Assembly: GCF_030063415.1 (NCBI RefSeq) | Contig: NZ_JASITA010000008.1 | Location: forward strand, 124,001-188,000 | From: Streptomyces sp. H27-C3 | Lineage (GTDB): Bacteria; Actinomycetota; Actinomycetes; Streptomycetales; Streptomycetaceae | Length of the DNA stretch: 64,000 nt | Reading direction: 5' to 3' | Part shown: in pieces, positions 16,179 through 53,061 of the stretch | How the letters are laid out: every line of letters begins with the position of its first letter | How positions within the stretch are numbered: position 1 is the first letter of the stretch | Translations under genes and position numbers: made by a program | The notes under the pieces: model-generated | What the model saw: the letters and a program-made list of their open reading frames with translations, nothing else | What the model was told of the DNA's origin: nothing | The model's database searches: none

Positions 16179-17654
16179 CTACAGGGCGCGCAGCAGGGTC
16201 GCCGGCTGCTCGACGCAGTCGGCCACGTACCGCAGGAATCCGCCCGCCGTGCCCCCGTCGCAGACCCGGTGGTCGAAGGTCAGTGACAATTGGACGACCT
16301 TGCGCACCGCGAGTTCGCCCTCATGGACCCACGGCTTGGGGACGATGCGGCCCACTCCGAGCATCGCCGCCTCCGGGTGATTGATGATCGGCGTGGAGCC
16401 GTCGACGCCGAACACCCCGTAGTTGTTCAGCGTGAATGTGCCGCCGGTCAAATCCGCCGGGGTGAGCTTCCCTTCCCGCGCGGCCCCGGTCAGCCGGGCC
16501 AGCTCGGTGCTCAGCGCGTCCACGGAGCGGGCGTGCGCGTCCCGCACTACGGGGACCACCAGGCCCCGCTCCGTCTGTGCGGCGAATCCCAGGTGCACGC
16601 CGGAAAGGCGCACGATCTCGCGGGAGGCCATGTCCACCGTGGAGTTGAGCTCCGGGAAGCGGGCCAGCGCCGCCGTGCAGATCCGGGCGAGGAGCGCGAG
16701 GACCGGGACCGGGGGCCCCGCCGACCGGTTCATGGCCGCACGCGCGGCCATCAGCTCGGTGGCGTCCGCGTCCACCCAGCAGGTGGCGTCCGGGATCTCG
16801 CGCCGGCTGCGCGAAAGCTTGTCCGCGACGGCGCCGCGCACACCCCGCAGCGGGACGCGCTCCCCGACGACGGCCGAGGAAACGGCAGCCACCGGCTCCG
16901 GTGCCCGCACGTGCACAGACGCCGCGTCCCGCACCGCCTGCTCGACGTCGGACCGCAGGATCAGCCCGTCGGGGCCGGACCCCGCCAGCTCCCGCAGATC
17001 AAGACCGTTCTCCCGGGCCAGCCGACGCACCAGCGGCGAAATCACCGGCACCGGACCAGCCGCACGCTCCGGCGAAGCCGCCACCGGACCGACCTCCACG
17101 GCCGACTCCGCAGCCGCCGCCGAGGCACTCGCAGCCGCCCCCACTGCCGCGCCCGGCCCGGCCCCGGCAGTGGCGTCCGCCGCCGAACCAACCACGGCAG
17201 CAGCACCCGCCTGGCCCGAAGGGCCCGCGCCCAGCGCACCCGGCCGGATCCGCCGTCGCCGCGCCGCCGCGGCCCCCGTGCCGTATCCCACCAGCACGTT
17301 GCCCGAGGACTCCTCGGCCGAGCCGGAAGTAGAACCGGCCGCCGAGCCCGAGGCGGCGCCTCCCGCGGCAGCCGCTCCCGCGACGACGGGCACCTCGTGG
17401 GCGGAGGCCGCCCCGACCGCGACCGTCAGCAGCGGCGACCCGACGGGCAGCTCCGTGCCCTCCTCGCCGAAGCGAGCCGTGACCACGCCCCCGTAGGGGC
17501 ACGGCACCTCCACCAGCGCCTTGGCCGTCTCGACCTCGACCACGGGCTGGTCGATGGCGACGACGTCGCCCACCTCCACCAGCCAGCGCACGATCTCCGC
17601 CTCGGTGAGCCCCTCACCGAGGTCCGGCAGCTTGAACTCCAACACCTGGGGCAT
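16179..17654 (-). CDS. bkdC: Branched-chain alpha-keto acid dehydrogenase E2 (dihydrolipoyl acyltransferase)
   Basis: A 491-residue E2 core. The lipoyl domain has Lys45 in VETAKALVEV. An Ala/Gly/Ser-rich linker covers about 85-190. The E1/E3-binding domain (PLVRRLARENGLDLRELAGSG) follows, then the catalytic domain with the HxxxDG motif, His462 and Asp466 (HRVCDGG). ATG 17654 shares its A with the E1beta stop. The complex makes isobutyryl-, isovaleryl- and 2-methylbutyryl-CoA from valine, leucine and isoleucine keto acids, the starters of branched fatty acids and some polyketides. No E3 gene is adjacent. Confidence 0.92.
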   Translation of the reverse strand: MPQVLEFKLPDLGEGLTEAEIVRWLVEVGDVVAIDQPVVEVETAKALVEVPCPYGGVVTARFGEEGTELPVGSPLLTVAVGAASAHEVPVVAGAAAAGGAASGSAAGSTSGSAEESSGNVLVGYGTGAAAARRRRIRPGALGAGPSGQAGAAAVVGSAADATAGAGPGAAVGAAASASAAAAESAVEVGPVAASPERAAGPVPVISPLVRRLARENGLDLRELAGSGPDGLILRSDVEQAVRDAASVHVRAPEPVAAVSSAVVGERVPLRGVRGAVADKLSRSRREIPDATCWVDADATELMAARAAMNRSAGPPVPVLALLARICTAALARFPELNSTVDMASREIVRLSGVHLGFAAQTERGLVVPVVRDAHARSVDALSTELARLTGAAREGKLTPADLTGGTFTLNNYGVFGVDGSTPIINHPEAAMLGVGRIVPKPWVHEGELAVRKVVQLSLTFDHRVCDGGTAGGFLRYVADCVEQPATLLRAL

Positions 17655-18673
17655 CAGCTCCCCGCCTCCCACTGCAGCCGCGCGACCGCGTCAAGTACCC
17701 GGTCCACACCCGGCAGATGGTGCCGCTCCAGCATCGGCGGCGGATACGGGATGTCGAACCCGGCGACCCGCAGCACCGGCGCCTCAAGATGGTGGAAGCA
17801 CCGCTCGGTGACCCGGGCGGCTATTTCCCCGCCGGGCCCGCCGAAGCCGGTCGACTCATGGACGACGACCGCACGTCCGGTGCGGCGCACCGACGCGGCC
17901 ACCGTCTCGTCGTCGAAGGGCACGAGCGAGCGCAGATCGACGACTTCGAGGTCCCAGCCCTCGGCCCGCGCCGCTTCCGCCGCCTCCATGCACACCGGCA
18001 GGGAGGGCCCGTACGTGATGAGCGTCGCGCTGCTTCCGGAGCGCCGCACGACCGCACGGCCGATCGGCTCGACCGCGGTCGGCGCCTCCGGCGACCAGTC
18101 GGCCTTCGACCAGTAGAGCCGCTTGGGCTCCAGGAAGACCACGGGGTCGTCCGAGGCGATCGCGGCCCGCAGCAGCCCATACGCGTCCTCGACGGTCGCG
18201 GGCATCACGACATGGAGGCCCGGAGTCGCCATGTAGTACGCCTCGGAGGAGTCGCTGTGGTGCTCGACGCCGCCGATTCCGCCGCCGTACGGCACCCGGA
18301 TCACCAGCGGCATCGGCAGCGCCCCGCGGGTGCGGTTGCGCATCCGCGAGACATGGCTGATGAGCTGCTCGAAGGCCGGATAGGCGAACGCGTCGAACTG
18401 CATCTCGACGACCGGCCGCAGCCCGTACATCGCCATGCCGACGGCCGCGCCCAGGATCCCCGCCTCGGCGAGCGGCGTATCAGTGCAGCGGTCCTCGCCG
18501 AACTCCTTGACCAGCCCGTCCGTGACCCGGAAGACCCCGCCCAGCGCGCCGACGTCCTCGCCCATCACATGGACGGTCGGGTCCTCGGCCATCGCGTCGC
18601 GCAGCGCGCGCCCGAGGGCCTGCGCCATCGACGCGGGCTTCGTGGCGACCGGCTTCCTCGCTACCGTGGTCAT
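17654..18673 (-). CDS. bkdB: Branched-chain alpha-keto acid dehydrogenase E1 beta subunit
   Basis: A 339-residue E1beta subunit of the thiamine diphosphate-dependent decarboxylase. Visible family motifs are VMGEDVGALGGVFRVTDGL, DTPLAEAGILGAAVGMA, RMRNRTRG and VVHESTGFGGPGGEIAA. The start is ATG 18673, in an ATGA overlap with the E1alpha stop. A longer frame reaches upstream but only shadows E1alpha. It works as an alpha2beta2 heterotetramer with the upstream gene product and hands the acyl group to the E2 lipoyl arm. Confidence 0.92.
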   Translation of the reverse strand: MTTVARKPVATKPASMAQALGRALRDAMAEDPTVHVMGEDVGALGGVFRVTDGLVKEFGEDRCTDTPLAEAGILGAAVGMAMYGLRPVVEMQFDAFAYPAFEQLISHVSRMRNRTRGALPMPLVIRVPYGGGIGGVEHHSDSSEAYYMATPGLHVVMPATVEDAYGLLRAAIASDDPVVFLEPKRLYWSKADWSPEAPTAVEPIGRAVVRRSGSSATLITYGPSLPVCMEAAEAARAEGWDLEVVDLRSLVPFDDETVAASVRRTGRAVVVHESTGFGGPGGEIAARVTERCFHHLEAPVLRVAGFDIPYPPPMLERHHLPGVDRVLDAVARLQWEAGS

Positions 18674-19818
18674 CTTTCGCCCTCCGCGTCGAGCTCGGCC
18701 CGCAACTGGGCCTCCTGCTCCTTGAGCTGCGGCGTGCTCTGCGCGTAGACGTGCGCGAAGAGGTCCGTCGGGTCGAGCACCGGCTCCGCGTTCATCCGCT
18801 CGCGCAGGTCCGCGGCCATCGTCTCGGCGGCCGCGCGCGCCTCGCGTATGCCGTCCTCGTCCAGGATGCCGCGCTGTGTCAGCTCCCGCTCCAGCAGCTG
18901 GACCGGGTCGTGCGCCCGCCATGCCTCGACCTCCGCGTCACCCCGGTAGCGGGTCGCGTCGTCGGCGTTCGTGTGGGCCTCGATGCGGTACGTCACGGCC
19001 TCGACCAGGGTCGGCCCGCCGCCCCGCCGGGCCCGCTCCATCGCGGCTGCCAGCACCTCGTGCACGGCCGCCGCGTCATTCCCGTCGACGAGCCGGCCGG
19101 GCATTCCGTACCCGACGGCCTTGTGGGCCAGGGAGGGCGCCGCGGTCTGCTTGGCGAGCGGGACGGAGATCGCGAAGCCGTTGTTCTGCACGAGGAAGAC
19201 GACCGGGGCCTTCCACACGGCCGCGAAGTTCAGCGCCTCGTGGAAGTCGCCCTCGCTGGTGCCGCCGTCACCGACCAGGGCGAGCGCCACCACGTCGTCG
19301 CCCTTGAGCCGCGCGGCGTGCGCGAGGCCCACCGCGTGCGGCAGCTGGGTCGCCAGCGGCGTACAGAGGGGGGCGATGCGGTACTCACGCGGGTCGTACC
19401 CGGTGTGCCAGTCGCCGCGCAGCAGCGTGAGCGCCTGCACGGGGTCGAGCCCGCGCACCACAGCGGCGAGGGTGTCGCGGTAGCTCGGGAAGAGCCAGTC
19501 GCGCTCCTGGAGCACCAGCGCGGCCGCCACCTGGCAGGCCTCCTGCCCGGTGCTCGACGGGTAGACGGCGAGGCGGCCCTGCTTGGTGAGGGCGGTGGCC
19601 TGCGCGTTGTATCTGCGGCCCCGGACCAGCTCCGCGTACAGCCGGCGCATCAGGGCCGCGTCGAGCCGGTCCGCCGCGTCGGTGCCGAGCACGCGATAGG
19701 GCGCGGTGTCGGGAAGCAGCGGTGCGGGGTCGGTGCGGGGCTTCCAGGACGGGGGAGGAGTGGGCCTGTAGGCCGGGGCACCAGGCAGCTCCTGAACCGT
19801 CATCGTGCTCTTCTTCAT
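18670..19818 (-). CDS. bkdA: Branched-chain alpha-keto acid dehydrogenase E1 alpha subunit
   Basis: A 382-residue E1alpha with the thiamine diphosphate motif GDGGTSEGDFHEALNFA ending in NN, and the IEAHTNADDATRYR phosphorylation-loop-like segment of this family. The start is ATG 19818 with ribosome site GAGGAGGTG. Methionines further upstream lack one. First gene of the bkd operon, divergent from an AsnC/Lrp regulator. The operator-like ACCGATTGTTCGGT lies about 60 bp upstream, the same motif as in the phenylacetate promoters. Confidence 0.92.
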   Translation of the reverse strand: MKKSTMTVQELPGAPAYRPTPPPSWKPRTDPAPLLPDTAPYRVLGTDAADRLDAALMRRLYAELVRGRRYNAQATALTKQGRLAVYPSSTGQEACQVAAALVLQERDWLFPSYRDTLAAVVRGLDPVQALTLLRGDWHTGYDPREYRIAPLCTPLATQLPHAVGLAHAARLKGDDVVALALVGDGGTSEGDFHEALNFAAVWKAPVVFLVQNNGFAISVPLAKQTAAPSLAHKAVGYGMPGRLVDGNDAAAVHEVLAAAMERARRGGGPTLVEAVTYRIEAHTNADDATRYRGDAEVEAWRAHDPVQLLERELTQRGILDEDGIREARAAAETMAADLRERMNAEPVLDPTDLFAHVYAQSTPQLKEQEAQLRAELDAEGER

Positions 19819-19877
19819 CGCGTGCACCTCCTCATAGGAGTGGTCAGAGGGGCGCAGGATTGTGGTGCGCCTCACCT

Positions 19878-19891
19878 ACCGATTGTTCGGT
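19878..19891. promoter_or_regulatory. TetR-type operator, bkd copy
   Basis: ACCGATTGTTCGGT, arms ACCGA/TCGGT with 4-nt spacer. It differs at one base from the copy between paaH and paaN. It lies 60-73 bp upstream of the bkdA ATG, in the divergent promoter region. Confidence 0.6.
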
Positions 19892-19925
19892 CGATGACGC
19901 ATTTTGGCTACAGGCACCTCCAGCC

Positions 19926-19934
19926 TGTGGACAA
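19926..19934. promoter_or_regulatory. DnaA-box-like nonamer in the bkd promoter
   Basis: TGTGGACAA, the complement of TTGTCCACA, the preferred Streptomyces DnaA box. It lies between bkdA and the AsnC regulator. Confidence 0.5.
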
Positions 19935-19971
19935 ACGGTTCTCCACAGCCTGGGATGGGGACAGGTCGTCC

Positions 19972-20493
19972 ATGACAGAGAGGCGGGGACACATGACAGC
20001 TGAACAAATGGCCGACGCGGGCCAGGACCCGCCCGCCCGGCCGCTGGACGCCATCGACCGCGACATCCTGCGGATGCTGCAGACCGACGGACGTGCGTCG
20101 ATACGTTCCGTGGCCGAGCACGTCCATGTGTCGCGGGCCAACGCCTACGCGCGCATCAACCGGCTCATCGACGACGGCGTGATCCGTGGCTTCAGCGCCC
20201 GGGTGAACCACGAGAGGGCGGGGCAGGCCGCCTCGGCGTACATCACGCTCAAGATCGTGCAGAATTCCTGGCGCACGGTCCGCGAGCAGCTCCAGGCGCT
20301 GCCGGGCGCCGCCCACATCGCCCTGGTCAGCGGTGATTTCGACGTACTGCTGCTGGTGCACACCGCGGACAACAGGGCACTGCGCGAGCTCGTACTCACG
20401 AAGATCCAGGCCATACCGGAGGTGCTCAGCACGCGCACCCTGCTGGTCTTCGAGGAGACGGATCTGGACCCCCAGCTCCCCCGCGAGTCCTAG
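19972..20493 (+). CDS. AsnC/Lrp family transcriptional regulator (bkd-associated)
   Basis: A 173-residue Lrp/AsnC regulator, divergent from bkdA. The winged helix-turn-helix is at about residues 24-75 (LDAIDRDILRMLQTDGRASI, then VSRANAYARINRLIDDGVI). The C-terminal RAM domain carries DFDVLLLVHTADNRALRELV. Such proteins bind amino acids or keto acids as octamers. Regulation of the neighbouring bkd operon by branched-chain amino acids is the likely role. The start is ATG 19972; ATG 19993, behind GAGGCGGGG, is an equally good alternative and would give 166 residues. Confidence 0.88.
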   Translation: MTERRGHMTAEQMADAGQDPPARPLDAIDRDILRMLQTDGRASIRSVAEHVHVSRANAYARINRLIDDGVIRGFSARVNHERAGQAASAYITLKIVQNSWRTVREQLQALPGAAHIALVSGDFDVLLLVHTADNRALRELVLTKIQAIPEVLSTRTLLVFEETDLDPQLPRES

Positions 20494-20529
20494 CAGGCCG
20501 GGGCGGGGCTGCCACCGGGCGCCGAGTGG

Positions 20530-21156
20530 TCAGCGGCTGGTCCGCAGCCCGTCGAAGGCCAGCCGTACGACCGTCTCCGCGAGCTGGTCGCCGCCGTCGG
20601 AGCCGTCCGGGTGGCCGGACTCGTCGGCGGTGCCGTCGGCCGACGGCGGCCGATACCACTCCACCAGGGAGTTCACCATCCCGAAGAGCAGCCGCGTCGC
20701 CAGCCGCATGTCCACATCGGCACGCAGGTCGCCGTCCGCGGCCGCCGCCTTCAGCAGATCGGCGACCCGCTGGTCGAATTCGCGGCGCCGCTCCAGCGCC
20801 CAGCGCTCCGCCTTGGTGTTGCCGCGGACGCGCAGCAGCAGCGTGACGTACGGCAGCTCGGCCATCAGCACCTCGACCGTACGACGGGTGACGTACTCCA
20901 CCCGCTCGATCGCCTGCCCGCGCACCGCTCCCGGCTCGTCCAGAATGCCGAAGAGGCCGTCGAGTGCGCGGCTGACCGCGCGGCGCAGCAGTTCCTCCTT
21001 GCCCGACACGTGGTGGTAGATCGAGGACTTGGAGATGCCGGCGGCCCGGGAGAGGTGCTCCATGGATGTGCCGTCGTAACCGCGATCGTTGAACACCCGC
21101 ACGGCGACGGTCAGGAGCGTCTCGGGGGTGTACGTGTCGCGCTTGGCGGTAGTCAC
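20530..21156 (-). CDS. TetR family regulator (PaaR-like, phenylacetate catabolism)
   Basis: A 208-residue TetR protein. The N-terminal helix-turn-helix spans about residues 10-55 (LLTVAVRVFNDRGYDGTSME, LSRAAGISKSSIYHHVSGKE). The C-terminal ligand domain follows. GTG 21156 overlaps the paaH stop (GTGA), so the two genes are cotranscribed. PaaR-type regulators respond to phenylacetyl-CoA. It is the best candidate to bind the ACCGA-N4-TCGGT sites at paaH/paaN, paaA and bkd. It ends in a serine/aspartate-rich segment before the last helix. Confidence 0.88.
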   Translation of the reverse strand: MTTAKRDTYTPETLLTVAVRVFNDRGYDGTSMEHLSRAAGISKSSIYHHVSGKEELLRRAVSRALDGLFGILDEPGAVRGQAIERVEYVTRRTVEVLMAELPYVTLLLRVRGNTKAERWALERRREFDQRVADLLKAAAADGDLRADVDMRLATRLLFGMVNSLVEWYRPPSADGTADESGHPDGSDGGDQLAETVVRLAFDGLRTSR

Positions 21157-22673
21157 GCGGAGGTCCCCTCCTGGGCGGAGAGCGGCTGGGCGAAGGACTG
21201 CTGGTAGAGCGCCAGGGAGGCCGCGTAGCGCCCGGTCGGGCAGCACTCGTGCAGATTCCCGAGCAGGTCGTACGCCCAGTCCTGGCCGAGCTCGCGGCCC
21301 CATTCGACCGGTCCGCGCGGGTAGTTGACGCCCAGCCGCATCGCGGTGTCGATGTCCTCGGGCGAGGCGACGCCCCTGGCGACGGCGTCGGCGGCGAGGT
21401 CGATCAGCATGGCGACGGTACGGGCGACGATCATGCCGGGTACGTCGCCGATGACGCTGACGTCCTTGCCGAGCTTCTGGAAGAGGCCGGTGGCCGCGTC
21501 GAGGGTCCGCGGCGAGGTGTCGGCGGAGGCGGCGAGCGCGATCCGGGTGGCGCCCCGGTAGTCGAGGGCGAGATCGAAGTAGACGACGTCCGTGTACTCC
21601 ACGGAGGTCCGGCCGTCCGCCGGTACGAGCTGTCCCTCGCCCGGCAGCTCGATGTACGGGCCGCCCGTCTCGACGCGCTTCACGGCGATGCCCGCCTCCT
21701 CCATCATCGCGACGACCGCATCGGCGGGGCCGAGGTCCCCGACGACGGTGACCGATTCCGGGGCGCCCCGTTGCGGGGCGGTGTGCGGGGCGGCTTTCGT
21801 GGTTCCTTCGGCGTACGGGAACCAGCCGTGGCCCGACTTGCGGCCGAGCCGGCCCGACTGGACGAGGCGGCGCTGAGCGAGGGACGGGACGAACTTGGGG
21901 CTCTGGAAGAAGGAGTCCCAGACGGAGCGGGTGACAGCCTCGTTGACGTCCTGGCCGATCAGGTCGGTCAGCTCGAATGGACCCATTTTGAAGCCGCCGC
22001 ACTCGCGCAGGACGGCGTCGATGGTGGCCGGGTCGGCGCCGCCCTCCTCGTACACCGCGAAGGCCTCGGCGTAGAAGGGGCGGGCGATGCGGTTGACGAT
22101 GAAACCGGGGGTGTCCGCGCAGCGGACCGGGGTCTTGCCCCAGGCGGCTGCCGTCGCCCACGCACGCGTGGCGCTCGATTCGTCGGTCGCGAAGCCGCTG
22201 ACGACCTCAACGAGGGGCAGCAGGGGCGCCGGGTTGAAGAAGTGCAGCCCGACGAACCGGCCGGGATTGCGCAGCGCGCCCGCGACGGCCGTGACGGAGA
22301 GGGACGAGGTGTTGGTGGCGAGCAGACAGCCGTCGGAGACGATCGCTTCGAGCGCCGCGAACAGCTCCTGCTTGACCGCGAGCTGCTCAACGATCGCCTC
22401 GACGACGAGCGCGGCGTCGGCCAGCTCGGCGAGGTCATCGGCGGGATGCAGCCGGGCGCGGGCCCCCTCGGCCTCCGCCACGTCGAGCCTGCCCTTCTCG
22501 ACGAGCCGGTCCAGTCGCCGGGCGACGGCCTCTGCGGCCTCGCGCGCCCGCCCGGGGGCTGCGTCGTACACACGCACCGGGTGACCTGCGAGAAGAGCCA
22601 CCTGGGCGATGCCCTGGCCCATGGTCCCTGTGCCGACGACGGCGACGGTGCGGGCTCGATCGATTGCTGTCAT
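21153..22673 (-). CDS. paaH: 3-hydroxyacyl-CoA dehydrogenase (PaaH type)
   Basis: A 506-residue NAD-dependent dehydrogenase with two copies of the C-terminal dimerisation domain, the architecture of PaaH/PaaC. The Rossmann start is VAVVGTGTMGQGIAQVALLAG. Catalytic His and Glu lie in GLHFFNPAPLLPLVEVV, and TPGFIVNRIARPFYAEA follows. In the phenylacetyl-CoA route it oxidises 3-hydroxyadipyl-CoA. Start ATG 22673 has GGAGGATCGG upstream. It is transcribed with the TetR gene and divergent from paaN, with a shared operator between them. Confidence 0.9.
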   Translation of the reverse strand: MTAIDRARTVAVVGTGTMGQGIAQVALLAGHPVRVYDAAPGRAREAAEAVARRLDRLVEKGRLDVAEAEGARARLHPADDLAELADAALVVEAIVEQLAVKQELFAALEAIVSDGCLLATNTSSLSVTAVAGALRNPGRFVGLHFFNPAPLLPLVEVVSGFATDESSATRAWATAAAWGKTPVRCADTPGFIVNRIARPFYAEAFAVYEEGGADPATIDAVLRECGGFKMGPFELTDLIGQDVNEAVTRSVWDSFFQSPKFVPSLAQRRLVQSGRLGRKSGHGWFPYAEGTTKAAPHTAPQRGAPESVTVVGDLGPADAVVAMMEEAGIAVKRVETGGPYIELPGEGQLVPADGRTSVEYTDVVYFDLALDYRGATRIALAASADTSPRTLDAATGLFQKLGKDVSVIGDVPGMIVARTVAMLIDLAADAVARGVASPEDIDTAMRLGVNYPRGPVEWGRELGQDWAYDLLGNLHECCPTGRYAASLALYQQSFAQPLSAQEGTSA

Positions 22674-22695
22674 GACCCCGATCCTCCCGTACAAG

Positions 22696-22704
22696 TTATC
22701 CACA
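22696..22704. promoter_or_regulatory. DnaA box in the paaH/paaN promoter
   Basis: TTATCCACA, a consensus DnaA box, 23 bp upstream of the paaH ATG. The flanking AAGTTATCCACAGG also occurs upstream of the DUF5819 gene at 27594. Confidence 0.6.
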
Positions 22705-22725
22705 GGTTTACCGGGCCCTCTTGTC

Positions 22726-22743
22726 CCGACCGATCGTTCGGTT
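22726..22743. promoter_or_regulatory. TetR-type operator between paaH and paaN
   Basis: CCGACCGATCGTTCGGTT. Its reverse complement is identical over 18 nt to the site upstream of paaA (27649-27666). The core is ACCGA-N4-TCGGT. It is placed to control both divergent genes. Confidence 0.8.
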
Positions 22744-22797
22744 ACTGTATCTCGTGTCCGCCTGTCCCTGCCCAGCTCGACGAGGAGTTGGTCCGCC

Positions 22798-24489
22798 ATG
22801 GCCGCCGAACTCACCACATCCCAGCTGTCCGAGAAGCACCGGTCCACCCTCGACCAGGCGCTCGAAGTGATCCGCACACGCGCCTACTGGTCACCGCACC
22901 CCGAGCACCCCAAGGCGTACGGCGAGAACGGCAGCCTGAGCGCCGCCGATGGCCTTGCCGCGTTCCAGGCACTTCAGGGCAGCCGCTTCGAGCTCGACCA
23001 GCCCGGCACGGACGCCTGGACGGGCGCGGAAGTATCGCCCTACGGCCCGGCGCTCGGCATCGAATACCCGCACGCGGACCTCGACGTCCTGCTGCCCGCG
23101 ATGCGCGCCGGCATGGGCGCGTGGCGGACGGCCGGGCCCGAGACCCGCGCCCTCGTCTGTATGGAGATCCTGGCGCGGATCAGCGCCCGTACGCACGAAT
23201 TCGCGCACGCGGTCATGCACACCAGCGGCCAGGCCTTCATGATGGCGTTCCAGGCGGGCGGTCCGCACGCCCAGGACCGCGGCCTGGAGGCCGTGACGTA
23301 CGCGTACGCCGAGCAGGTCCGCACCCCCGCCGACGCGGACTGGTCCAAGCCGCAGGGTAAGCGCGACCCGCTCGACCTGAAGAAGTCCTTCACCGCGGTC
23401 CCGCGCGGCATCGCGCTGCTGATCGGCTGCAACACCTTCCCGACGTGGAACGGCTACCCGGGCCTCTTCGCCTCCCTGGCCACCGGAAACCCGGTCCTGG
23501 TCAAGCCGCACCCGCGCGCCGTCCTGCCGCTGGCCCTCACGGTGCGGGTCGCCCGCGAGGTGCTGGCCGAGACGGGCTTCGACCCGAACCTGGTGGCGCT
23601 GGCCGCCGAGCAGCCGGGCGAGGGCATCGCCAAGACGCTGGCGGTCCGCCCCGAGATCAAGATCATTGACTACACCGGTTCCACCGCCTTCGGCGACTGG
23701 CTGGAAGCCAACGCCCGCCAGGCGCAGGTGTACACGGAGAAGGCCGGCGTCAACACGGTCGTCATCGACTCCACCGCCGACTACAAGGGCATGCTGTCCA
23801 ACCTCGCCTTCTCGCTGTCCCTCTACAGCGGCCAGATGTGCACCACCCCGCAGAACCTGCTCATCCCCCGGGACGGCATCACGACGGACGCGGGAACGAA
23901 GTCGTACGACGAGGTGGTCGCGGACCTGGCGGCCTCGGTCGACGGCCTGCTCGGCGACGACGCCCGCGCGAACGCGCTGCTCGGCGCCCTGGTCAACCCG
24001 GATGTGAAGGCCCGCCTCGAAGCAGCCGCGAGCCTGGGCGAAGTCGCCCTGCCCTCGCGGGAGCTGACCAATCCGGAGTTCCCGGACGCGGTGGTCCGTA
24101 CGCCCGTCATGGTCAAGTTCGACGGCGGCAAGACGGACGCCGACGCGGCCTATCTCTCCGAGTGCTTCGGCCCGGTCTCCTTCGCCGTCGCCATGGACTC
24201 CACGGCGGACGCCCTGGAGCTGCTGCGCCGCACGGTGCGGGAGAAGGGCGCGATGACGGTCGGCGCGTACACGACCTCACCGGAGACGGAGAGGGCGATC
24301 GAGGAAGTCTGCCTGGAGGAGTCCGCGCAGCTGTCCTTGAACCTGACGGGCGGGGTGTACGTCAACCAGACGGCGGCCTTCTCCGACTTCCACGGCTCGG
24401 GCGGCAACCCGGCGGCGAACGCGGCCCTCTGCGACGCGGCATTCGTGGCAAACCGCTTCCGAGTGGTGGAGGTCCGCAGGCAGGCGTAA
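22798..24489 (+). CDS. paaN: Phenylacetic acid degradation protein PaaN (aldehyde dehydrogenase)
   Basis: A 563-residue aldehyde dehydrogenase superfamily protein of the actinobacterial PaaN type. The cofactor segment VPRGIALLIGCNTFPTWNG is near residue 201. The likely catalytic Cys348 is in SLYSGQMCTTPQN, followed by DYTGSTAFGDWL-type contacts and a C-terminal FHGSGGNPAANA. It probably oxidises the ring-opened semialdehyde in the PaaABCDE pathway, the dehydrogenase half of PaaZ. No hydratase domain is present. Start ATG 22798 has GACGAGGAG upstream. Divergent from paaH. Confidence 0.88.
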   Translation: MAAELTTSQLSEKHRSTLDQALEVIRTRAYWSPHPEHPKAYGENGSLSAADGLAAFQALQGSRFELDQPGTDAWTGAEVSPYGPALGIEYPHADLDVLLPAMRAGMGAWRTAGPETRALVCMEILARISARTHEFAHAVMHTSGQAFMMAFQAGGPHAQDRGLEAVTYAYAEQVRTPADADWSKPQGKRDPLDLKKSFTAVPRGIALLIGCNTFPTWNGYPGLFASLATGNPVLVKPHPRAVLPLALTVRVAREVLAETGFDPNLVALAAEQPGEGIAKTLAVRPEIKIIDYTGSTAFGDWLEANARQAQVYTEKAGVNTVVIDSTADYKGMLSNLAFSLSLYSGQMCTTPQNLLIPRDGITTDAGTKSYDEVVADLAASVDGLLGDDARANALLGALVNPDVKARLEAAASLGEVALPSRELTNPEFPDAVVRTPVMVKFDGGKTDADAAYLSECFGPVSFAVAMDSTADALELLRRTVREKGAMTVGAYTTSPETERAIEEVCLEESAQLSLNLTGGVYVNQTAAFSDFHGSGGNPAANAALCDAAFVANRFRVVEVRRQA

Positions 24490-24520
24490 CGAGACGCCCT
24501 GCCCCGCACGCCGACCCGTT

Positions 24521-24552
24521 GCGCCCGTCCGACACAACAGCCGGACGGGCGC
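24521..24552. terminator. Terminator after paaN
   Basis: 11-bp perfect stem GCGCCCGTCCG/CGGACGGGCGC with a 10-nt loop, 32 nt past the paaN stop. Confidence 0.75.
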
Positions 24553-24903
24553 ATCCGGCCGACCGATCCCCCGGCCCCCGCCCGGCCGCCCCGCCGGCGC
24601 ATCCAGCGGAACCGGCCTCTCTCACCCACCCGCCATCCCCGGCCACCCGGCACCTCCGGCCAGCTGGCACATCCGCCCGCCCGACACATCCGGTCGGCCG
24701 AGCGCTTCCCGCTCACCCGGCCCCTCCGCCTACCCGGCCCCTCCGGTCGGCCGGCACCTCCAGCCCATCCAGCCCGTCCGGCGTTGGAGGACAAAAGGGG
24801 GCCTGAGGGCTTGCCCCCCAGTTTCGGGAAGGGGCGGGTGGGGGACAGCGCCGCAGGCACCCGCACCCACCCCCACGCACCCGCACCCCCCACGACGCCG
24901 ACG

Positions 24904-24945
24904 CCGGCACCGGCACCGGCACCGGCACCGGCACCGGCACCGGCA
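24904..24945. repeat. Hexamer repeat (CCGGCA)7
   Basis: Seven exact tandem copies of CCGGCA end 17 nt before the 3' end of the methyltransferase gene. This simple repeat is probably formed by slippage. Confidence 0.95.
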
Positions 24946-24962
24946 AGGGGGCAACCGCCTAC

Positions 24963-25658
24963 TCAGCCCCGCCCAGCCCCCGCGTCCCCAGAAATAACCG
25001 CATGCCGCTGCACCCACGCATGCATGGCGATCGCCGCCGCCGCCCCCGCATTGATCGACCGGGTCGAGCCGAACTGCGCGATCGAGCAGACCATCGCCGC
25101 GTGCTCCCGCGCTTCCTTGGTCAGCCCAGGACCCTCCTGCCCGAAGAGCAGCACGCACCGCCGCGGCAGTTCGGTCCGCTCCAGCGGTACGGACCCGGGG
25201 AGGTTGTCGATCCCGATGATCGGCAGTCCCTCGGCCGCCGCCCAGGCCGTCAGATCCTCCGTGCCGGGGTGGTGGCGCACATGCTGGTACCGGTCGGTGA
25301 CCATCGCGCCCCGCCGGTTCCACCGCCGCCGCCCCACGATGTGGATCTCCTTCGCGAGGAAGGCGTTGGCAGTCCGTACGACAGAGCCGATATTGAAGTC
25401 GTGGCCCCAGTTCTCCACGGCCACATGGAAGTCGTGGCGCCGGGTGTCCAGGTCCTCGACGATCGCCTCGCGGCGCCAGTAGCGGTACGGGTCGACGACG
25501 TTGCGCCGGTCGCCGGCGGCCAGCAGCTCGGGGTCGTACCGCTCCCCCTCGGGCCACGGCCGCGGATGCGGGCCCACGCCGATCTCGGGCGCCGTGAAGC
25601 CCTCGTCGTACTGGATGGGTTCCGCATCAGGCCCGGGGCCTGGGATGTCGCTGCTCAC
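24963..25658 (-). CDS. SpoU/TrmH family RNA methyltransferase
   Basis: A 231-residue SPOUT-class enzyme that methylates ribose 2'-O in tRNA or rRNA using S-adenosylmethionine. The three family motifs are present: NIGSVVRTANAF (motif 1), CVLLFGQEGPGLT (motif 2) and CSIAQFGSTRSINAGAAAAIAM (motif 3, knot region). An N-terminal extension of about 80 residues lacks a recognised domain. The substrate position cannot be told from sequence. The start ATG 25658 overlaps the HTTM gene stop by 4 nt, so the genes form one transcript with it. Confidence 0.88.
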   Translation of the reverse strand: MSSDIPGPGPDAEPIQYDEGFTAPEIGVGPHPRPWPEGERYDPELLAAGDRRNVVDPYRYWRREAIVEDLDTRRHDFHVAVENWGHDFNIGSVVRTANAFLAKEIHIVGRRRWNRRGAMVTDRYQHVRHHPGTEDLTAWAAAEGLPIIGIDNLPGSVPLERTELPRRCVLLFGQEGPGLTKEAREHAAMVCSIAQFGSTRSINAGAAAAIAMHAWVQRHAVISGDAGAGRG

Positions 25659-26836
25659 CCGACGAGCGTACGGTCCACCTCCGCACCTTCAGAACGCTGC
25701 TCTGGCACCGGGTCGCCGCGCCGGGTCGCCGTCCGGAGCCGGTCGCGCCCCCGCGCCGCCCGGCCGCCGAGCCACAGCAGGAAGACCGTGGGCAGGAAGA
25801 CCGCGTCGGCCGCGATCATCGCCAGCGAGAAGAAGGGCAGCCCCAGCAGCAGGGCGATGCCCGCATGCTCGGCGATCATGAGTGCGAGCAGGACGTTCTT
25901 GACCCGGCGGTTGAAGAGCGTGAAAGGGAAGGCGACCTGCACGATCACTGTCCCGTATGTCAGCAGCAGCACCATCACGCCGCTGGAGGCGAGCAGCCCG
26001 GAGAGCGAGGGCCAGGGGGAGAAGTAGTCGAGGTGCAGCGGGTAGTAGAGCGCGGTGCCGTCCTGCCAGCGCGAGCCCTGGATCTTGTACCAGCCCGCGG
26101 TCGCGTAGACCAGGCAGACCTCCGCCATGATCACGAAGAGGCCCGCGTTGTGCGCGAGGTTGGCGAACACGTCCAGCAGGGTGCGCGGCTCCCCCGGCGC
26201 GTAGCGGTTGACCGCCCACCACAGCCCGTGACCGGCCCACAGCGCCCAGAGGACGACCGCCCAGCCCCAGCTGAGCTCACCCATGAACGTGACCACGGCG
26301 AGGGCGAGGGCGAGGACAGCCCACAGAGCGGGGCCCACCCGGTCGACACCCTGCCGACCGGTGTCGGCCGCACGCCGCGCGTCCAGCGACCACACCTGCC
26401 CGCAGCGCGTGAACACCAGGTAGATGGCGATCAGATGGACGATGTTGTCGCCGCCGTCGCCCATGAAGATGCTGCGGTTCTGCAGCGAGAGCACACCGAT
26501 CATGAAGAGCACCGACATGGTGCGGGTGCGCCAGCCGAGCATCAGCAGCAGGGCGGACAGGAGCGCGAGCGCGTAGACGAGCTCGAACCAGAGCGCGGTG
26601 TCCGACCACATCAACGCCGTGAAGGCGTGGTTGCCCGCTATCAACTGCTGGGCCATGTCCCAGCTCCACGGCCCGTCGGGTCCGTAGAGCTCCCGGCGGT
26701 GCGGGAGTTCGCTGAGCAGGAAGAGCAGCCAGGTGGCGGAGAAGCCGATCCGCACGACGGCGCTCTGGTACGGGCCGAGGGCGGTGGAGGTGACGCGCTG
26801 GACGGCGTCGCCGAGCGTGCGATTGAACGAGCTCAC
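25655..26836 (-). CDS. HTTM domain membrane protein (gamma-carboxylase/SdpB-like)
   Basis: A 393-residue polytopic membrane protein with the horizontally transferred transmembrane (HTTM) pattern also seen in vitamin K-dependent carboxylases and SdpB. Several hydrophobic helices are visible (SAVVRIGFSATWLLFLLSE, WFELVYALALLSALLLMLG and others). Characteristic pieces are IVHLIAIYLVFT, YATAGWYKIQGSRWQDG and LHLDYFSPWP. Start GTG 26836 overlaps the DUF5819 stop (GTGA). The paired small protein suggests a two-component membrane complex. Substrate and reaction are unknown. Confidence 0.8.
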   Translation of the reverse strand: MSSFNRTLGDAVQRVTSTALGPYQSAVVRIGFSATWLLFLLSELPHRRELYGPDGPWSWDMAQQLIAGNHAFTALMWSDTALWFELVYALALLSALLLMLGWRTRTMSVLFMIGVLSLQNRSIFMGDGGDNIVHLIAIYLVFTRCGQVWSLDARRAADTGRQGVDRVGPALWAVLALALAVVTFMGELSWGWAVVLWALWAGHGLWWAVNRYAPGEPRTLLDVFANLAHNAGLFVIMAEVCLVYATAGWYKIQGSRWQDGTALYYPLHLDYFSPWPSLSGLLASSGVMVLLLTYGTVIVQVAFPFTLFNRRVKNVLLALMIAEHAGIALLLGLPFFSLAMIAADAVFLPTVFLLWLGGRAARGRDRLRTATRRGDPVPEQRSEGAEVDRTLVG

Positions 26837-27567
26837 CCGGTCACCTCCGTATGCGCCCCGGCGGGCAGGTCCGCTTCGGTCACCGACCACCACGGGAGGA
26901 TCCGGTGGGCCGGCTTGTTGTTGGCCCTCTCGTTGCTCCACGACGGGGGCTTCACCAGGGTCGTCTCGGACCTGACCTGGATCCGCGCGATCTTGCCGCC
27001 CACGTCCAGGTGCGCGAGGCGCAGCATCACAATGCGACGGATGTAGCGCTCGGAGAGCGCACCGCGCATGCCGTTCGCCTTGTTCGCGCTGTCGTGCGAG
27101 CCCGTGTAGAAGTCCCAGCCGCGGCGCAGTTCGTTCTGCACGGTGTGGCTCGGCAGCAGGTTGCCGCGGATCGCGGCGCCGTCCTGGGCCGAGAGATCAA
27201 TCCACTCGGTGGTCCGCCACTCGCCCCCGGCGGTACGGACCTGGGCGCGCGCCTGCACGGCGATGTTCTGTTGGAGCGGATTGGGAGCGAAAAGCTTCCA
27301 GTTCTGTTCGAACTCGGGGTAGATCCAGTCGTCAACCAACTCACCGTTCCGCTTGCTGACGGTGTTGGCGGGCGCGACATGCAGGAAGACCATCCCGAGG
27401 TGCACACAGGCGAGCACACCAACGAGAGCCAGCGCCACAGCCGCCGCGACCTGGTACGGGAGGGACAGCGCGGCGATGCCGTTCGGTGCGTCGGAGCCTC
27501 GCGCGGTGTCCGGTGCGGGCCCGGGATCCTGCCCGGCGATCACGCCCCTGTCGTCGTACGAATCCAT
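26833..27567 (-). CDS. DUF5819 family membrane-anchored protein
   Basis: A 244-residue protein with one N-terminal membrane helix (QVAAAVALALVGVLACVHLG) and a predicted extracytoplasmic domain carrying EFEQNWKLFAPNP, the signature I associate with DUF5819. ATG 27567 is preferred over GTG 27603 because GGGGCGGG lies directly upstream. Translationally coupled to the HTTM gene. In the two-gene arrangement it may be a partner subunit, similar in layout to SdpA/SdpB of Bacillus, but function is not known. A DnaA box overlaps its leader. Confidence 0.75.
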   Translation of the reverse strand: MDSYDDRGVIAGQDPGPAPDTARGSDAPNGIAALSLPYQVAAAVALALVGVLACVHLGMVFLHVAPANTVSKRNGELVDDWIYPEFEQNWKLFAPNPLQQNIAVQARAQVRTAGGEWRTTEWIDLSAQDGAAIRGNLLPSHTVQNELRRGWDFYTGSHDSANKANGMRGALSERYIRRIVMLRLAHLDVGGKIARIQVRSETTLVKPPSWSNERANNKPAHRILPWWSVTEADLPAGAHTEVTG

Positions 27568-27595
27568 CCCGCCCCGATCCCCGAGATCCAGCAAG

Positions 27596-27604
27596 TTATC
27601 CACA
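27596..27604. promoter_or_regulatory. DnaA box upstream of the DUF5819 gene / paaA promoter
   Basis: TTATCCACA, in the same AAGTTATCCACAGG context as at 22693-22706. It lies in the divergent region between the DUF5819 gene and paaA. Confidence 0.6.
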
Positions 27605-27648
27605 GGGTTGACACCCTACGGGCCTCCGGCCGACCATTGAAGTCAGCG

Positions 27649-27666
27649 AACCGAACGATCGGTCGG
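27649..27666. promoter_or_regulatory. TetR-type operator upstream of paaA
   Basis: AACCGAACGATCGGTCGG, identical on the opposite strand to 22726-22743. It ends 21 nt before the paaA ATG, a position where bound repressor would block transcription or initiation. Confidence 0.8.
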
Positions 27667-27687: not shown

Positions 27688-28809
27688 ATGGCCACAGCAC
27701 CTGCGCACTGGACGGCGGCCGAGAAGACGGCAGGGAATCGGACGGCCGACAGCACCGCGGCGTACGAGGCGGCGTTCGACGCCGCCGTAGCCGCGGACGA
27801 GCGCATCGAGCCGCGCGACTGGATGCCGGACTCCTACCGGGCCTCGCTGGTCAGGCAAATGGCGCAGCACGCCCACTCCGAGATCATCGGCATGCAGCCG
27901 GAGGCCAACTGGATCACGCGCGCGCCCTCGCTGCGGCGCAAGGCGATCCTGATGGCGAAGGTGCAGGACGAGGCGGGGCACGGGCTGTATCTGTACAGCG
28001 CCGCCGAGACGCTGGGCACCAGCCGTGAGGAGCTGCTCGACAAGCTCCACTCCGGCCGCCAGAAATACTCGTCGATCTTCAATTACCCCACGCTGACCTG
28101 GGCCGATGTCGGCGCGATCGGCTGGCTCGTGGACGGCGCAGCAATCACGAACCAGGTGCCGATCTGCCGATGCTCGTACGGGCCCTACGCCCGCGCGATG
28201 GTCCGCATCTGCAAGGAGGAGTCCTTCCACCAGCGCCAGGGCTTCGAGCTGCTGCTCACCCTCAGCAACGGCACGCGGGCGCAGCACGAGATGGCGCAGG
28301 ACGCGGTGGACCGCTGGTGGTGGCCGTCGCTGATGATGTTCGGCCCGCCGGACGACGAGTCGGCGCACTCGGCGCAGTCCATGGCCTGGAAGATCAAGCG
28401 GCATACCAACGACGATCTGCGCCAGCGCTTCGTCGACATCGCCGTCCCGCAGGCCGAGGCGCTCGGACTGACCCTCCCCGACCCGGACCTGAAATGGAAC
28501 GAGGAGCGCGGGCACCACGACTTCGGCGCGATCGACTGGGCCGAGTTCCGGGACGTCCTCAAGGGAAACGGCCCGTGCAACGAGCAGCGGATCACCCAGC
28601 GCCGCCGGGCGCACGAAGAGGGCGCCTGGGTCCGGGATGCGGCATCCGCGTACGCAGCGAAGCACGATCCGCGCACCGCCCATCGGACCGCCGAGCACCG
28701 GACCGCAGCAGACGCAATAGCTGAGCACCGGACAGCAGCACACGGGACCACAGCGAGTGGGACCGCTGAGTACGGGACCACCGAGCAGCACGGGGAGGCA
28801 CGGGCATGA
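27688..28809 (+). CDS. paaA: Ring-1,2-phenylacetyl-CoA epoxidase subunit PaaA
   Basis: The 373-residue catalytic subunit of the multicomponent monooxygenase that epoxidises phenylacetyl-CoA. Diiron-site segments are visible: [26 protein letters not shown] and [12 protein letters not shown]. Start ATG 27688 has GGACGGAAGG upstream. The last 45 or so residues are an odd threonine/histidine/alanine repeat ([20 protein letters not shown]) absent from most PaaA proteins. The stop overlaps paaB by 4 nt. First gene of paaABCDE, with the operator just upstream. Confidence 0.95.
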
Positions 28810-52860: not shown

Positions 52861-53061
52861 TTATCCACAGCGTTGTCCACACAGGTGGAAAAGGTCGGAA
52901 GATCTGTGGATAACTTCCAGGGTGTTGACACCGGTATGACCGGCCAGGCCCCCTGGGTGACACGGCCCGCCCCTTGCCCTTACTGGGAAAACTCAGTTCA
53001 GCGACAAGGGGCACAGCTGTTCCCCACAAGATGCACAAGATCCGCCACTCGCTGTGGACAA
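52861..53061. promoter_or_regulatory. Cluster of four DnaA-box-like nonamers
   Basis: TTATCCACA (52861-52869), TTGTCCACA (52873-52881), TGTGGATAA (52905-52913) and TGTGGACAA (53053-53061). Three lie within 53 bp. The group follows crgA and is beyond the 3' end of the rhomboid gene, not upstream of either. Confidence 0.75.

Follow-up and report, generated by a model that had tools for sequence, protein, structure and literature searches.

A PaaR-type operator in the bkdA promoter likely joins bkdABC to the phenylacetyl-CoA regulon of Streptomyces

The stretch of DNA analysed here (the window; 64,000 nucleotides (nt) of Streptomyces sp. H27-C3, contig NZ_JASITA010000008.1, positions 124,001 to 188,000) holds the bkdABC operon for a branched-chain keto acid dehydrogenase-type (Bkd) complex beside paa genes for phenylacetyl-coenzyme A (CoA) catabolism, with a TetR-type regulator gene, paaR, between them. 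From sequence comparison, we consider it probable that PaaR directly represses bkdABC through an operator in the bkdA promoter, alongside the paa units. The bkd operator has the same half-sites as the paa operators, it is almost universal in Streptomyces, and it is missing in the few genomes that securely lack PaaR and still keep bkdA.

Operator sites and the TetR-type regulator

An earlier note on this DNA had placed the palindrome ACCGA-N4-TCGGT at three promoters, those of bkdA, of the paaH/paaN pair and of paaA. All three copies of the motif, ACCGANNNNTCGGT, were found, and the 64-kb window holds no others; 0.08 copies were expected from shuffled sequence, and none of 100 shuffles of the window reached three. 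The sites, called from motif search and conservation, are:

19878..19891, minus strand: PaaR-type operator ACCGAACAATCGGT in the bkdA promoter
22729..22742, no strand assigned: PaaR-type operator ACCGATCGTTCGGT in the paaH/paaN gap
27650..27663, plus strand: PaaR-type operator ACCGAACGATCGGT before paaA

The half-sites at bkd are identical to those at the paa sites, and the two paa sites agree in 18 of 18 nt (22726-22743 and 27649-27666), as the note had said; they are reverse complements, in opposite orientation. The operator lies 59 nt from the bkdA ATG (19818), 55 nt from the starts of both paaH (22673) and paaN (22798) and 24 nt from that of paaA (27688). A motif frequent across the genome had been named as an objection to a joint regulon, and the genome scan returned a rare one: the strict form ACCGAACRATCGGT has exactly three copies in 8.02 Mb, all at the bkd, paaHN and paaA promoters of the window, while the loose form of ACCGA-N4-TCGGT occurs in 20 places (8,021,300 bases) against 7 for the reversed control. 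A fourth, near-identical site, ACCGAATGATCGGT, was located on another contig (G000:C40:66541), 27 nt 5' of an ATG; the gene that follows is paaK (TIGR02155, 708.6 bits at a cut-off of 646.3). Beyond these promoters, 32 extra exact sites were fetched (L212-L243; G, L and g are our labels for genomes, loci and genera). Seventeen of them precede paaK, seven are unexplained and eight, in genus g7, are taken as coding matches, since they coincide with the opening codons of a small gene that has a WhiB-like gene nearby, a call made by eye for L226 and from the like stretch for the other seven.

The paaR product carries a TetR-type DNA-binding domain (PF00440, 3.3e-15; PF17932, 2.7e-17), and it matches the solved structure PDB 2iai, 'Putative transcriptional regulator SCO3833' (E 1.4e-94). 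As predicted, the gene belongs to the paaH operon, since paaR and the paaH stop overlap by 4 nt (GTGA). Either paaN or paaH adjoins paaR in the closest-locus set, the best 80 of 558 PaaR-encoding loci, which are nearly all named Streptomyces and biased to close relatives. The operator before paaA is exact in all 72 of these loci that reach paaA. Outside the family, 40 regions were fetched of 64 PaaR matches, and 37 of the 40 hold paa genes (none in L266, L287 and L291). The motif also matches the published operator of Burkholderia PaaR, ACCGACCGGTCGGTT, from which phenylacetyl-CoA is reported to release the B. cenocepacia protein (PMC9493321). For S. pristinaespiralis PaaR, a review table gives the putative site AACGA-N4-TCGGT (PMC10933834).

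The genes of the locus, with the domain and family models that name them, are:

16179..17672, minus strand: bkdC (bkdC2, SCO3829-type), E2 acyltransferase; NCBIfam E2 models, best 284 bits, all below cut-off; true start not fixed
17654..18673, minus strand: bkdB, E1 beta; Transket_pyr and Transketolase_C above cut-off
18670..19818, minus strand: bkdA, E1 alpha, first gene of the operon; E1_dh above cut-off, as is TIGR03181 (named pyruvate dehydrogenase (PDH) E1 alpha)
19972..20493, plus strand: bkdR, Lrp/AsnC-type regulator, divergent from bkdA; HTH_AsnC-type and AsnC_trans_reg above cut-off
20530..21156, minus strand: paaR, TetR-type regulator, SCO3833-like; TetR_N and TetR_C_24 above cut-off
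21153..22673, minus strand: paaH, 3-hydroxyacyl-CoA dehydrogenase; PRK08268 above cut-off, TIGR02279 (PaaH) below its cut-off
22798..24489, plus strand: paaN, divergent from paaH; TIGR02288 above cut-off
27688..28809, plus strand: paaA, first in the phenylacetyl-CoA epoxidase operon; TIGR02156 above cut-off

The corresponding S. coelicolor genes are given as SCO3832 for bkdR and SCO3831-3829 for bkdA2B2C2 (PMC8176718, PMC12323332). A short tandem repeat of the CCGGCA type lies in the gap 3' of paaN (24880-24950).

Conservation of the bkd operator and its loss without PaaR

Among the 80 closest loci, the bkd site is exact in every one of the 79 in which the two genes bkdA and bkdR are present. 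The strict 14-mer was present in 119 of 121 Streptomyces genomes, mostly in two or three copies each, with a single control match in total. In a larger set of 392 Streptomyces genomes, PaaR was detected in 386 and ACCGAACAATCGGT in 385 (Fisher 1.7e-9, uncorrected for kinship). Presence of PaaR was called at E up to 1e-50 from the seven best first-look candidates per genome, so that a divergent PaaR may escape; a follow-up search scored at most 65 candidates per genome. G001 and G037 were scored in full, as was G400 (41 of 41 candidates).

Across the family, the bkd site occurs in 13 of the 17 genera sampled and was not found in genera g2, g5, g10 and g15; all ten of its half-site bases are kept across genera. 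It stands within 330 nt of bkdA in 116 of 125 readable promoters (L135 was skipped for a run of N). The nine others comprise L165, where the operator lies about 600 nt upstream of bkdA, L136 (G232), where it has one changed base, L163 (G410) and six loci without paaR. paaR adjoins bkdR in almost all loci read; in G089, where about 15 kb separate the bkd locus from paaR, the operator is retained. Near bkdF-type paralogues no exact site was found among the fetched loci; at L195 a match with one mismatch lies about 500 nt upstream.

Eight of the 392 genomes are discordant or doubly negative (G232, G010, G198, G037, G156, G271, G121 and G001). For G010, the apparent lack of the bkd site beside a PaaR match was rejected, because a run of N fills the space between bkdA and bkdR. 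Five lack both PaaR and the site: G037, G156 and G271 keep a bkdA orthologue with no bkd site, G121 has bkdF-type matches only (40%), and G001 (79% complete) has a single match of 39%. Counting every securely PaaR-less genome that keeps bkdA (G037, G156, G271, G400 and G420), the bkd operator is present in none of five. With two doubtful assemblies added, G426 without the site and G198 with it, the count becomes one of seven; G426 was left out of the secure count because part of a PaaR was matched at the edge of a contig. The six family loci without paaR and without the bkd site are those of G037, G156, G271, G420, G426 and G400. The paaN and paaA operators are missing as well in G037, G156, G271 and G420. 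G395 and G420 also contain the 14-mer, but away from bkd and paa genes, and these copies were rejected as candidates. The cleanest case is G400, in which bkdR and bkdA are still divergent and the left half-site ACCGA is kept while the right half is lost; neither PaaR (41 of 41 candidates scored) nor paaA was found there.

Several observations weigh against direct control of bkd by PaaR. The PaaR-less cases are few: three of them (G037, G156 and G271) cluster together in the BkdA tree and form one clade, and G400 is one loss event. In G198 (81% complete) the bkd site is present but PaaR was not matched; the contig breaks off right behind bkdR, where paaR would lie, and the genome was set aside as a case of a site without PaaR. 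No PaaR match was obtained in G422 (65 of 121 candidates scored), yet the motif stands at paaA and near paaN/paaK; this genome is fragmented, and its bkdA promoter (L250) is cut off by a contig end. In G410 paaR, bkdR and bkdA lie side by side and no bkd site was found. The bkd site always has CA where most Streptomyces have CG at the two paa sites, which might point to a weaker site or to a different binding protein. Finally, the exact motif occurs anywhere in only 14 of the 40 regions from outside the family, which suggests that the operator drifts with distance. Taken together, the near-universal conservation, the loss of the bkd operator with PaaR in the few cases at hand and the identity to a published operator support well the joint regulon that the earlier note had predicted, and direct repression of bkdABC by PaaR is likely.

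In the mechanism we propose, a dimer of the SCO3833-like PaaR would bind ACCGA-N4-TCGGT at four paa units (paaHR, paaN, paaABCDE and, here, paaK) and also at the bkdA promoter, over a likely -10 hexamer, repressing bkdABC; phenylacetyl-CoA would release it from the DNA. The bkdABC operon would then answer to two inputs, BkdR with branched-chain amino or keto acids and PaaR with phenylacetyl-CoA.

Gene neighbourhoods and a possible substrate of the Bkd complex

In the three clustered PaaR-less Streptomyces genomes (L132-L134, L245-L247), bkdABC is followed by paaA, paaD and paaE, co-directional and away from bkdR; G156, which was read in detail, has an enoyl-CoA hydratase gene between bkdC and paaA. 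In G420, the genes after bkdABC are paaN, a thiolase gene, a hydratase gene, paaH and paaA; from paaN as far as the hydratase gene, neighbours overlap. Outside the family, bkdABC and bkdR lie in or beside a paa cluster in three of the 40 regions (G721, G674 and G743). No bkd gene was seen in 14 further flank regions (L298-L311) of seven outside-family genomes, so this neighbourhood is not general there. The BkdA proteins of the paa-linked loci and of the window form one clade (support 97/98), apart from the bkdF-type paralogues (98/94).

For pristinamycin biosynthesis, the PDH-like PglB/C is said to convert phenylpyruvate to phenylacetyl-CoA (PMC7089894). Given this precedent and the presence of the BkdABC clade in or beside paa clusters, we propose that the Bkd complex may be a source of phenylacetyl-CoA, the ligand of PaaR. 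The second Bkd complex (bkdA2B2C2) would be, wholly or in part, a phenylpyruvate (arylpyruvate) dehydrogenase that makes the inducer of its own repressor, and would be the point at which amino acids enter the paa pathway, in parallel with PaaK. Neighbourhoods and tree point this way, and we advance the proposal tentatively, with a little less than even confidence. Against a purely aromatic role, bkdA2B2C2 is assigned a branched-chain function in print (PMC13033682), and in S. albus valine is said to be handled mainly by a complex called branched-chain keto acid dehydrogenase (BCDH) II, which may correspond to it (PMC8176718). The bkdA promoters of G721, G674 and G743 carry no PaaR motif (best three mismatches), which weighs against control by PaaR.

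PaaR could instead control bkd for a general supply of CoA thioesters from branched-chain keto acids, with no role for phenylpyruvate. The branched-chain functions reported for bkdA2B2C2 and BkdR (PMC8176718, PMC13033682) fit this alternative, whose probability overlaps with that of PaaR repression of bkdABC as a whole; it leaves unexplained that members of one BkdABC clade are found within or next to paa clusters in separate lineages, and we regard it as quite possible, though somewhat doubtful. The reason the earlier note had given for the regulon, CoA thioesters as starters and fuel, is disfavoured in the same way, as the neighbourhoods suggest a source of phenylacetyl-CoA.

The bkdA promoter and comparison with known regulators

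The 14-mer at bkd gave 120 matches, two of which (L160 and L161) are not at bkd, so that 118 bkd promoters were compared. The centre of the bkd operator is ACAA in all 116 exact sites, while the centres of the paa sites vary, with four versions at paaN (117 sites) and five at paaA (84 sites), none of them ACAA. A conserved block extends on both sides of the operator, and in 115 of the 118 promoters AACAAT follows TRGCC[AG] at a distance of 17 or 18 nt (exceptions L167, L170 and L177). Between the bkd operator and bkdR stands a 33-bp inverted repeat with TRGCC in its right arm; the outer arms of this repeat keep a fixed spacing in 105 of 118. The following elements are proposed:

19882..19887, minus strand: AACAAT, proposed -10 hexamer of the bkdA promoter, inside the operator; from the fixed spacing
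19905..19910, minus strand: TAGCCA, proposed -35 hexamer; weak consensus match
19903..19935, no strand assigned: 33-bp inverted repeat TTTGTCCACAGGC-N7-GCCTGTAGCCAAA, proposed operator of BkdR (Lrp/AsnC); from the conserved block

TAGCCA and AACAAT match the usual hexamers only in part. From the spacing we infer that the -35 hexamer of the bkdA promoter falls within the inverted repeat, probably the target of BkdR, and the -10 hexamer within the PaaR operator. A -10 hexamer in this position would explain both repression and the invariant ACAA centre.

The ACAA centre, present at every exact bkd site and at no paaA or paaN site, could also mean that bkd is bound, in place of PaaR, by a different member of the TetR family that prefers the same half-sites; TetR genes are numerous in Streptomyces, and the genome of the window alone gave 78 first-look candidates. 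We consider this unlikely: the half-sites are those of the paa sites, paaR is beside bkdR nearly always, the site is missing in all five securely PaaR-less genomes that keep bkdA, and the overlap with AACAAT would account for the centre without a second protein. That the bkd site is a core-promoter or BkdR element whose ends resemble the half-sites by accident is more unlikely still: the block conserved on both sides and the fit of AACAAT, at its constant distance from TRGCC, to a -10 hexamer would agree with it, but the ten half-site bases persist across genera, the PaaR-less G400 loses the right half and keeps the divergent gene pair, and the chance of all ten bases equalling the PaaR operator is low.

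A second short motif accompanies the operators. TT[AG]TCCACA, close to the Streptomyces DnaA box reported as TTGTCCACA (PMC4285127), has seven copies in the window, one at each of the three promoters (19926-19934, 22696-22704 and 27596-27604), at a nearly fixed distance from the operator, and four near 52.9 kb. None of 200000 random point triples in the window matched the placement at the three promoters. In the 80 loci (1.54 Mb), 185 of 187 copies of TTRTCCACA lie within 120 nt of these operators, at 78 of 79 bkd, 54 of 80 paaHN and 53 of 72 paaA sites. The motif was absent at all 19 paaK loci and in four regions with a relocated paaA; it was therefore rejected as part of the PaaR regulon and seems tied to the chromosomal place rather than to PaaR. 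The four other boxes of the window (52861-53061) are intergenic, after a crgA-like gene (named by eye), and are perhaps a DnaA-box cluster.

Control of paa genes by PaaR is already known in S. pristinaespiralis, where the putative motif of the TetR repressor SSDG_03033 is nearly the same (PMC10933834, PMC7089894); the reviews that cite it, in the parts available, do not mention a bkd target, and a conserved bkd operator is added here. B. cenocepacia PaaR, with phenylacetyl-CoA as ligand, shares half-sites and spacing with the sites of the window; the targets named for it and for Thermus thermophilus PaaR in the text available are paa promoters, and the T. thermophilus consensus, CNAACGNNCGTTNG, has half-sites unlike those found here (PMC9493321). 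TetR control of bkd is likewise known elsewhere, with other operators. The mycobacterial TetR protein BkaR represses an operon with bkd genes (PMC3920632); the core of its operator, GTTA(N)T(N4)A(N)TAAC, has no match at bkdA of the window. PccD of Saccharopolyspora erythraea and AccR of S. avermitilis are TetR regulators of branched-chain or acyl-CoA metabolism, and the BCDH operon is described as a PccD target (PMC8176718); their motifs differ (PMC10933834) and also have no match at bkdA. Allowing up to two mismatches, the BkaR, AccR and PccD operators gave 2, 0 and 3 matches in the window, none in 19000-20500 and none above chance. BkdR (SCO3832) is a known regulator of a bkd cluster (PMC8176718), and its gene is divergent from bkdA here; it belongs to the Lrp/AsnC family, whereas PaaR is of the TetR type, and we propose that the two share the bkdA promoter. 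The earlier note had presented control of bkd by PaaR as a link that would be new. No report of this link was found in the open-access literature searched (the original 2015 paper on S. pristinaespiralis PaaR in J. Bacteriol. was outside this scope and might mention bkd); TetR control of bkd as such is not new, given BkaR and PccD.

If correct, direct repression by PaaR would establish a genus-wide regulatory link between phenylalanine and phenylacetate catabolism and the bkd operon, which is discussed as a source of polyketide building blocks, and paaR mutants are predicted to alter bkd expression. It would also assign a function to structure 2iai, deposited merely as a putative transcriptional regulator. 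An arylpyruvate role of the second complex, if true, would explain why Streptomyces keep two bkd clusters.

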